Assembly: GCF_000336635.1 (NCBI RefSeq)
Contig: NZ_AOLY01000037.1
Location: forward strand, 315,199 to 379,198
Length of the DNA: 64,000 nucleotides
Reading direction: 5' to 3'
From: Haloarcula japonica DSM 6131
Lineage (GTDB): Archaea > Halobacteriota > Halobacteria > Halobacteriales > Haloarculaceae
Shown piece after piece: positions 6,917 through 42,704 of this stretch; within the stretch, counting starts at the first letter, position 1; every line of letters starts with the position of its first letter. The notes under the pieces are model-generated. The model was given only the letters and a program-made list of their open reading frames with translations, ran no database searches and had not been told where the DNA came from. The position numbers and the translations under genes are program-made.

Positions 6917-7885
6917 TTACTCAGCCCAGTAGGCGTCACCGGGCTGGGTCTCGAAGACGGCGCGATCAAGCACATCGACTGCTTTCTCCAGCCCCTCACG
7001 GGCGCTGGTGAGCGAGTCCTCGTGTTCGATAGAGAGCGCGCCGTCGTAGCCGACCATCCGCAGCGTCGACACGACGTCTTTCCAGTGAGACTCGTCGTGG
7101 CCGTAGCCGATTGAGCGGAACAGCCACGACCGGTCTGCCTCGTCCGTATACGGCGCGGTGTCCAGTACGCCCTTCTCGCGGGCGTTTGAGTCGTACACTT
7201 TCGTGTCCTTGGCGTGGAAGTGGTGGATGGCGTCGTGCTCACCGAGTAGGCGAATGGCCTCGGTCACGTCGATGCCTTGCCAGTACAGGTGCGAGGGGTC
7301 GAAGTTCGCCCCGATGCGGTCGTTCGTCCGCCGGCGGAGTTCCAGCAGCCCGCGGGGTTCATACACCAACATGTTGGGATGCATCTCGATACCGACATTT
7401 ACGTCGTGTGCGCCCGCGTGGGCCGCGAGGTCCAACCAGTACTCGTCGGCGACGCGCCACTGGTACTCGTGGGCGTCGGCGTGTTCGGTCGGCCACGGGG
7501 CGGTGATCCAGTTCGGGACCTCGTCGTTCGGGCCGCCGGCGGGCAGGCCCGAGAACCCCGTGACGGTGTTCACGTCGAGCTGGTCGGCCAGCCGGATCGC
7601 CTCCCGGAGTTCCCGATCTGCCTCGGCAGCGCGCTCGTCGTCCGGGTGGAGCGGATTGTTGTGAGTCGCCAGCGCACTCACTCGGAGGTCGTGTTCGTCC
7701 AAGAGCGACTGCAGTTCGGCCTGCTTCTCCTCGTCGTCGAGGTACGCCTGCCGGTCGAGGTGGTCGTCGCCGGGGAAGCCACCACACCCCAGTTCGACCG
7801 CATCGACGCCCAGGTCGTCGAGATACGCCAGTGCTTCGTCGAGCGACTGTCCACCGAGTGGAACTGTCAGTACACCGATGTCCAT
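6917..7885 (-). CDS. sugar phosphate isomerase/epimerase (xylose isomerase-like TIM barrel)
   Basis: A 322-residue AP-endonuclease-2-like TIM barrel. Strand motifs DIGVLTVPL (start), AVELGCGGFPG near 40, VSALATHNNPLHP near 85, GIEMHPNMLVYEP near 180, IGANFDPSHLYWQG near 210 and HFHAKDTKVYD near 240 carry the His/Glu/Asp metal ligands of the family. The ATG at 7885 is preferred over 7933 because the barrel starts there and a T-rich box lies about 25 bases upstream; the extra 16 residues do not fit. A 16-base palindrome at 7895-7910 overlaps this promoter. Likely partner of the Gfo/Idh/MocA enzyme. Confidence 0.92.
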   Translation of the reverse strand: MDIGVLTVPLGGQSLDEALAYLDDLGVDAVELGCGGFPGDDHLDRQAYLDDEEKQAELQSLLDEHDLRVSALATHNNPLHPDDERAAEADRELREAIRLADQLDVNTVTGFSGLPAGGPNDEVPNWITAPWPTEHADAHEYQWRVADEYWLDLAAHAGAHDVNVGIEMHPNMLVYEPRGLLELRRRTNDRIGANFDPSHLYWQGIDVTEAIRLLGEHDAIHHFHAKDTKVYDSNAREKGVLDTAPYTDEADRSWLFRSIGYGHDESHWKDVVSTLRMVGYDGALSIEHEDSLTSAREGLEKAVDVLDRAVFETQPGDAYWAE

Positions 7886-7894
7886 GCCCGGCGA

Positions 7895-7910
7895 TACAAC
7901 CGGTGTTGTA
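7895..7910. promoter_or_regulatory. candidate operator TACAACCGGTGTTGTA
   Basis: Arms TACAAC and GTTGTA are perfect inverted repeats around CGGT. The site lies 10-25 bases before the sugar isomerase ATG and overlaps the minus-strand T-rich TATA region (7908-7917), a repressor-like position. A copy differing at a single base (TACAACGGGTGTTGTA) is at 40949-40964, in front of the GH13 glucosidase. Confidence 0.6.
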
Positions 7911-8030
7911 AAAAAACGTACCGCTGGCCCCACCGTCCATCTGTCTGACCAGCAAGCGACACGGACCGGAGACGGGACAATGACAGACGGTGGCGTAAAG
8001 GCTTAACCCGGAGCGTACAGTGGTTTAGTC

Positions 8031-40948: not shown

Positions 40949-40964
40949 TACAACGGGTGTTGTA
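40949..40964. promoter_or_regulatory. candidate operator TACAACGGGTGTTGTA
   Basis: Arms TACAAC and GTTGTA are perfect inverted repeats around GGGT. The site is 43-58 bases before the GH13 glucosidase start, upstream of the TATA-like ATTTAAG (40977-40983), a position suiting an activator. It differs at one base from the copy at 7895-7910, in front of the sugar isomerase. Confidence 0.6.
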
Positions 40965-41006
40965 TGAACCCGTGGATTTAAGCAACGCGTCAGGCTACCC
41001 CTCTGT

Positions 41007-42704
41007 ATGACCGCAGAGCGCGCCTGGTGGAAGGAGGCAGTCGTCTACCAGATTTATCCCCGGAGCTTCAACGACAGCGACGGCGATGGCGTGGGCGACC
41101 TACAGGGAATCATCGAGCGCCTGGACTACGTCGCCGACCTCGGCGTCGACGTCATCTGGCTCAATCCGGTGTACGACTCCCCGCAGAATGACAACGGCTA
41201 CGACATCAGCGATTATCGGGCCATCTACGACGAGTTCGGGACAATGGCAGACTGGGAAGCGCTACTTGAAGAGGTCCACGAGCGAGGTATGCGACTCGTC
41301 ATGGACCTTGTCGTCAATCACACGTCGGACCAGCACGAGTGGTTCGAGAAGTCCCGACAGCGGGACCCGGAGTACGAGGACTACTACATCTGGCGCGAGG
41401 GCGGAACAAACGAGGACGGCGAGCCCACGCCCCCGAACAACTGGGAGTCCTTTTTCGGGGGCTCCGCCTGGGAGTACGACGAGGCGCGCGGCGAGTACTA
41501 CCTCCACCTGTACGACACCTCACAGCCGGACCTGAACTGGCGCAACGACGCCGTCCGACAGGACATCTTCGACACCATCGAATGGTGGCTGGAGAAGGGC
41601 ATCGACGGCTTCCGGATGGACGTCATTAATCTCCTGTCGAAAGCCGAAGGACTGCCCGACGGCGATCCGGACAGCGAGTGGGTCGGGTCCGAGCATTTCA
41701 TCGATGGGCCGGAGATGCTGTCGTATCTCGACGCAATGGACGAGCAGGTGCTGTCGAACTACGACGTGATGACCGTCGGGGAGATGCCACAGCTCACCGT
41801 CGAGTCGGCCCGCGAGTACGCCGGCGCTGAGGGGCCGCTGGACATGGCGTTTCACTTCCAGCACACGAAACTCGACTACGCTGACGGCGAGCGGTGGTCA
41901 GTCGGCGACTGGAGCCTGCCGGACCTGAAGCGTATCATCGACCGCTGGCAGGACGGGCTGGCGGCGGACGGCTGGAACACGTTGTACTGGGAAAACCACG
42001 ACCAGCCGCGGAGCGTCTCCCGCTACGGCGACCCTGAGGACTACCGCCCAGAATCCGCGAAACTACTCGGAACGTTCATCCTCACGCTCCGTGGCACGCC
42101 CTACATCTACCAGGGGCAGGAACTCGGGATGACCAACGCCGACTGGGACACGATGGACGACCTCCGCGACGTGGACGCCATCAACCACGCGCGGGAGCTA
42201 CTTGACCGGGAGGGCTTCGACGACTACGACGACGTGAAAGACGTCGTCGGCTACCGGACCCGTGACAACGCCCGGACACCGATGCAGTGGGACGACTCGG
42301 AAAACGCCGGCTTCACCGACGGCGATCCTTGGATTCAGGTCAATCCGAACTACAGAGAGATCAACGCCGCCGACCAGCAAGCCGATACGGACTCCGTCTA
42401 CAACTACTACCGACGACTCATCCAGTTGCGCTCCGACAGGGACGTGCTGGTGTACGGGGACTACACCGACCTGCGTCCCGACCACGAGACCGTCTTTGCC
42501 TTCACGCGGTCGCTGGCGACGGACTCGGGAACCGAGCGGCTTCTCGTCGTCCTGCACTTCGATGACGCGGCGGAAACCTTCGACCTCCCAGTCGAGTACG
42601 CCGATTCGACGCTGCTAGAGTGCAATTACGACCACGACGACCCGGACCCGGGAACAGTGACGCTCGCGCCGTACGAGGCTCGCGTCTACGAGCTGTTCGA
42701 CTGA
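41007..42704 (+). CDS. GH13 alpha-glucosidase or trehalose-6-phosphate hydrolase
   Basis: A 565-residue GH13 enzyme, likely subfamily 31. The start WWKEAVVYQIYPRSFNDSDGDGVGDLQGIIERLDYVADLGVDVIWLNPVY is typical. Catalytic residues: nucleophile Asp in GFRMDVIN near residue 205, acid/base Glu in VGEMPQ near 260 and the third acid in WENHDQPRSVSRYGD near 330. A Lys/Arg phosphate pocket is not obvious. The C-terminal beta domain is complete. It hydrolyses alpha-1,4 or alpha-1,6 glucosides, or trehalose-6-phosphate. It lies behind the 40949 palindrome, with a TATA-like box 24-30 bases before the ATG. Confidence 0.92.
   Translation: MTAERAWWKEAVVYQIYPRSFNDSDGDGVGDLQGIIERLDYVADLGVDVIWLNPVYDSPQNDNGYDISDYRAIYDEFGTMADWEALLEEVHERGMRLVMDLVVNHTSDQHEWFEKSRQRDPEYEDYYIWREGGTNEDGEPTPPNNWESFFGGSAWEYDEARGEYYLHLYDTSQPDLNWRNDAVRQDIFDTIEWWLEKGIDGFRMDVINLLSKAEGLPDGDPDSEWVGSEHFIDGPEMLSYLDAMDEQVLSNYDVMTVGEMPQLTVESAREYAGAEGPLDMAFHFQHTKLDYADGERWSVGDWSLPDLKRIIDRWQDGLAADGWNTLYWENHDQPRSVSRYGDPEDYRPESAKLLGTFILTLRGTPYIYQGQELGMTNADWDTMDDLRDVDAINHARELLDREGFDDYDDVKDVVGYRTRDNARTPMQWDDSENAGFTDGDPWIQVNPNYREINAADQQADTDSVYNYYRRLIQLRSDRDVLVYGDYTDLRPDHETVFAFTRSLATDSGTERLLVVLHFDDAAETFDLPVEYADSTLLECNYDHDDPDPGTVTLAPYEARVYELFD

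Follow-up and report, generated by a model that had tools for sequence, protein, structure and literature searches.

The window, the whole 64-kb stretch of DNA that was analysed, contains two exact copies of the inverted repeat TACAAC-N4-GTTGTA, located 33 kb apart at the promoters of a sugar isomerase/epimerase-type gene and a glycosidase gene. The genes and promoter elements at the two sites are as follows.

6917–7885, reverse strand: sugar isomerase/epimerase-type TIM-barrel gene (PF01261, 3.1e-32; 322 aa; ATG at 7885), predicted target of operator 1
7895–7910, no strand assigned: operator 1, TACAACCGGTGTTGTA, covering -25 to -10 relative to the isomerase start, immediately behind the T-tract at the TATA position
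7910–7916, reverse strand: T-tract occupying the TATA position in the isomerase promoter (about -25 to -31) and abutting operator 1
40949–40964, no strand assigned: operator 2, TACAACGGGTGTTGTA, covering -58 to -43 relative to the GH13 start, immediately ahead of BRE/TATA
40976–40981, forward strand: TTTAAG, the TATA-like element in the promoter of the GH13 gene (about -28), conserved in orthologues
41007–42704, forward strand: GH13 alpha-glucosidase-type gene (PF00128, 3.3e-166; 565 aa; NF008183 above the cut-off), predicted target of operator 2

An earlier sequence-only reading of the window had reported the two 16-mers as differing by one base, and both are present at these coordinates, the sole difference being a spacer of CGGT in one and GGGT in the other. 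It described them as 16-base palindromes. The arms are perfectly inverted, but the palindromy does not extend over all 16 bases: each site is strictly a 6-4-6 inverted repeat with 12 palindromic positions. The classes assigned to the two downstream genes hold, as does the proposed dual placement, with the isomerase site just behind TATA and the GH13 site ahead of TTTAAG.

Frequency and conservation of the motif

The exact motif occurs only twice in the 4.28-Mb genome, both times in the window, against 0.030 copies expected per genome and 4.5e-4 per window under a first-order model; the reversed pattern, used as the control for motif counts, does not occur. The pattern was chosen after the window had been seen, and the window contains 37 perfect 6-4-6 repeats, which speaks for a coincidence of the two copies. 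So does the search with two mismatches allowed, which showed no enrichment in the genome (67 matches against 96 for the control) and gave at least two matches in 10 of 100 shuffles. In a single genome, therefore, only near-perfect sites can be called. Because of the post hoc pattern and the missing enrichment at two mismatches, the case rests on the comparison between genomes, which we consider decisive.

Across 146 genomes of the family, 60 exact sites were found against 4 for the control (Poisson P about 1e-48). Ten GH13 promoters from Haloarcula are identical at all 12 arm positions, as against none of 50 upstream bases and one of four spacer bases, and all fetched GH13 orthologues with a promoter of their own, representing two genera, retain the site at 12 of 12 positions. 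Orthologues of the isomerase gene are present in 73 of the 146 genomes. Their promoters have a T-rich or TTTTTAT element at the place of the T-tract, and the site lies behind it at -25 to -10 in most Haloarcula genomes and in one genome of genus g7. This copy is often degenerate, CACCNGYTGTA being its best-kept part, and has been lost in some Haloarcula genomes. The family counts, the GH13 promoter footprint, and the gene classes and near-constant spacing described below already refute chance as an explanation on sequence grounds, and its probability is negligible. The sequence-only reading had judged a chance doublet unlikely, and had named frequent occurrence outside promoters and poor conservation at orthologues as grounds for abandoning an operator. 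The scan of genome and family finds the motif rare elsewhere, and sites are kept before both GH13 and isomerase orthologues.

Target genes and their arrangement

As judged by homology of the downstream gene, 53 of the 60 family sites precede sugar genes or gfcR: GH13 (20), gfcR (10), GH68 (9), sugar ABC-binding proteins (6), GHL5 (4), isomerase (2), GH32 (1) and aldo/keto reductase (1). The distance between site and gene is about 50–54 bp for main-type GH13, GH68 and GH32 genes, 68–70 bp for gfcR, 18 bp for the isomerase and 14 bp for GHL5. Outside the family, 16 of 20 inspected sites precede genes for sugar ABC-binding proteins and one precedes a gene for a PfkB kinase. Most sites are located upstream of BRE/TATA and the isomerase site just behind TATA, so that the inverted repeats stand, as TrmB operators do, before BRE/TATA or at the transcription start. 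The distribution across genomes shows TACAAC-N4-GTTGTA to be a conserved operator tied to sugar genes. The new sugar-regulon operator proposed from the window is thus supported by conservation at orthologues, by rarity elsewhere and by the position of almost all sites before sugar genes, while the predicted regulon extends beyond what the window could reveal, to gfcR, GH68, GH32 and ABC-transporter genes.

In genus g2 (L016, L017, L020, L076) the exact motif is found 14 bp before the start of a GHL5-family putative glycosidase gene, a second placement downstream of TATA besides that of the isomerase. The motif also occurs there 118–120 bp before a divergent GH13-type gene.

Beyond the window, the own genome (G000) carries the following related sites, listed with the gene trmB3.

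G000:C35:79649–79664: TACAACAGTCATTGTA, a site with one mismatch, some 68 bp ahead of gfcR
G000:C9:190050–190065: TACTACGGGTGTTGTA, a site with one mismatch, some 52 bp ahead of a GH68 levansucrase-type gene
L313:6839–6854 (G000:C35): degenerate site AACAACAGCTGTGGTA, before the aldo/keto reductase gene
L313:9160–9175 (G000:C35): degenerate site AACAACACCTGTGGTT, with trmB3 on one side and the sugar-binding-protein gene on the other
G000:C35:81913–82986: trmB3, about 2.2–2.3 kb from gfcR

The gfcR product is a true GfcR (NF045507, 372.9 bits), and its gene is a probable further member of the regulon in this genome, judging from the site before it. Three exact sites, before GH13, isomerase and gfcR, are present in genome G013, which we take, with the help of its gene numbering, to be that of H. 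hispanica, a genetically tractable species.

In eight relatives a single stretch holds most of the genes for the isomerase, Gfo/Idh, M24 peptidase, GH13, GfcR, aldo/keto reductase, TrmB3 and sugar-binding protein, and these clusters carry sites resembling [TA]ACAAC-N4-GTTGT[TA]. The own genome has the set dispersed: isomerase and GH13 are separated by 33 kb, and a different contig carries gfcR, the aldo/keto reductase gene, trmB3 and the transporter. Through a shared operator, the dispersed isomerase, GH13, gfcR, trmB3 and transporter genes would still form one regulon.

Candidate regulators

The sequence-only reading stated that no regulator is encoded beside either site and suggested one of TrmB type. 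The first statement is true of the window. Relatives, however, have a TrmB paralogue with domains PF01978 and PF11495 next to the sites. Eleven genomes have an orthologue of this gene, trmB3, at a distance of 22–302 bp from an exact site, and in 29 the two are within 10 kb of each other. The usual order in relatives from several families is trmB, site, sugar ABC-binding protein, which places the regulator near both a sugar ABC transporter and the operator; the own-genome site in this position is degenerate. The own-genome copy has the same domains (PF11495, 228 bits; PF01978, 57 bits), as do the copies of G206 and G003. The gene is present in 62 of 66 motif-bearing genomes against 163 of 326 others (P 8e-13, shared ancestry being ignored). 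Four site-bearing genomes are without it, and in the three of these that were inspected the site does not precede a recognised sugar gene (the fourth is G268). From its position near gfcR (HAH_1560) and from the adjoining transporter, the candidate regulator appears to be orthologous to H. hispanica HAH_1557, trmB3, which flanks an ABC transporter and keeps four of six sugar-binding residues (PMC10817205).

The adjacency of trmB3 to exact sites across families, and the way in which the presence of the motif follows that of the gene, support a TrmB-type regulator. TACAAC-N4-GTTGTA is probably, by these comparisons, the operator of a TrmB-family sugar sensor orthologous to HAH_1557. Three observations count against this assignment: trmB3 is not beside the window sites, the gene is also present in half of the genomes that lack an exact site, and the own-genome site nearest to it is the degenerate one.

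The main rival is GfcR, the phosphoribosyltransferase-domain activator of sugar catabolism, which was the first candidate considered; under this explanation the site before gfcR would serve autoregulation. Many Haloarcula species have a site at -68/-70 of gfcR, the gene clusters with isomerase and GH13 in relatives, most sites are in the position of an activator, and neither fructose nor sugar alcohols support growth of a gfcR mutant of H. hispanica (PMC11519228). The site at gfcR, however, is absent outside Haloarcula and hence not conserved across the class. The pyk gene, whose activation by GfcR was demonstrated in Haloferax rather than in Haloarcula (PMC11519228), has no site in its Haloarcula promoters, where the best match reaches at most 8 of 12 positions. 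Moreover, gfcR is near-universal (352 of 392 genomes) and does not discriminate the motif-bearing genomes, and outside genera g1 (which includes Haloarcula) and g7, where positions are listed, it lies at a large distance from the sites or on a separate contig, with trmB3 adjacent to them. GfcR was demoted on the pyk promoters, the lack of gfcR sites outside Haloarcula and the adjacency of trmB3 in relatives; the first two of these make it more likely a target than a binder of the motif, and its being the binder is improbable. A search of solved structures with GfcR gave no match.

The Haloarcula pyk promoters (L241–L270) share a strongly conserved element, CTTCTTATCCC, of their own. Outside Haloarcula, gfcR is often followed, at a distance of up to about 200 bp, by a divergent TrmB-like gene with 26–29% identity to trmB3, forming a second neighbourhood of gfcR with a TrmB-like gene (L133, L137, L141, L145, L148, L157, L161, L162, L171, L176).

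In nine genomes of genus g50 (family f4, L195–L203) the exact motif stands some 97 bp ahead of the gene for a different sugar-binding protein and adjoins a large helicase-like gene that is either divergent or upstream. The 4-kb stretches around these sites contain no trmB3, and neither does a 17-kb stretch of one of the genomes (G263). Since trmB3 was not found near the g50 sites, a different protein may read the motif in some lineages. That another regulator, such as an HTH protein of the IclR or another type, is the general user of the operator is nonetheless very unlikely: no other regulator recurred next to the sites among the loci inspected, a non-systematic set.

Still less probable is binding by TrmBHar (HAH_1548), the characterised regulator of gluconeogenesis, which shares family and locus with trmB3 and is encoded about 9 kb from it. 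TrmBHar was rejected on its published targets, as the 15 ChIP-seq sites in H. hispanica include neither gfcR nor a glycosidase gene (PMC10817205). Its DNA-binding domain is clearly unlike that of TrmB3, and the published Halobacterium TrmB motif is TACT-N7/8-GAGTA.

Discussion

The arrangement proposed for TrmB3 has counterparts among known TrmB systems. In Thermococcales, the TrmB-family regulator TrmBL1/Tgr likewise uses an inverted repeat with six-base arms, TATCAC-N5-GTGATA, before genes of sugar metabolism and transport, and the position of the site relative to BRE/TATA sets the sign of control (PMC4158304). Both arms and spacer differ from the motif described here, and the glycosidase sites here are upstream of TATA, whereas those of the Pyrococcus alpha-amylase genes are behind it (PMC4158304). 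In the trehalose/maltose operon of Thermococcus and Pyrococcus, trmB stands by a sugar ABC transporter with the operator at the binding-protein promoter, as here; that operator, TACT-N3-AGTA, is unlike ours, covers BRE/TATA and represses (PMC4158304). The haloarchaeal TrmB proteins VNG1451C of Halobacterium and TrmBHar also have partly palindromic operators and position-dependent sign, but their operator is another, their targets belong to gluconeogenesis, and the ChIP list is without gfcR and glycosidases (PMC10817205). TACAAC-N4-GTTGTA thus matches none of the three published TrmB motifs; as these differ from member to member, a match is not required. GfcR of Haloferax and Haloarcula (NF045507; PMC11519228) is an activator of sugar catabolism whose own gene carries the site in many Haloarcula. 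A text search of archaeal papers for the half-site returned nothing relevant, and a literature search whose scope left out most subscription journals found neither a description of this operator or regulon nor a functional study of trmB3.

We infer the direction of control from the position of the sites, following what has been described for Tgr, TrmBL1 and VNG1451C, where a site upstream of BRE/TATA activates and one behind TATA represses. A TrmB3 dimer would bind the inverted repeat and sense a sugar through the TrmB sugar-binding domain. Sites upstream of BRE/TATA would activate GH13, GH68, GH32, the ABC binding protein and gfcR, and the site behind TATA would repress the isomerase gene. 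The predicted polarity is opposite to that of the Pyrococcus alpha-amylase genes, which suggests that TrmB3 may act in its sugar-bound form. The target genes suggest alpha-glucosides or sucrose as inducer. As many Haloarcula species have the site at gfcR, this gene is a likely target, and TrmB3 would sit above the general activator of sugar catabolism. We tentatively propose a two-tier control, for which the odds are less than even, in which TrmB3, probably sugar-bound, would turn on the transporter, the glycosidase genes and gfcR and shut off the isomerase gene.

The system itself is of a known kind; what is new is the putative assignment of an operator and regulon to trmB3 and the predicted link from TrmB3 to gfcR. 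An uncharacterised haloarchaeal TrmB paralogue thereby gains a predicted operator, a list of targets and a predicted direction of control, and a sugar-specific sensor would be linked to GfcR. The exact motif is rare, with about 1–3 copies per genome, and can be used to predict members of the regulon across the class. If the two-tier control is true, the polarity of TrmB3 would be inverted relative to the TrmB proteins of Thermococcales, and sugar catabolism in these archaea would involve a cascade from TrmB to GfcR.
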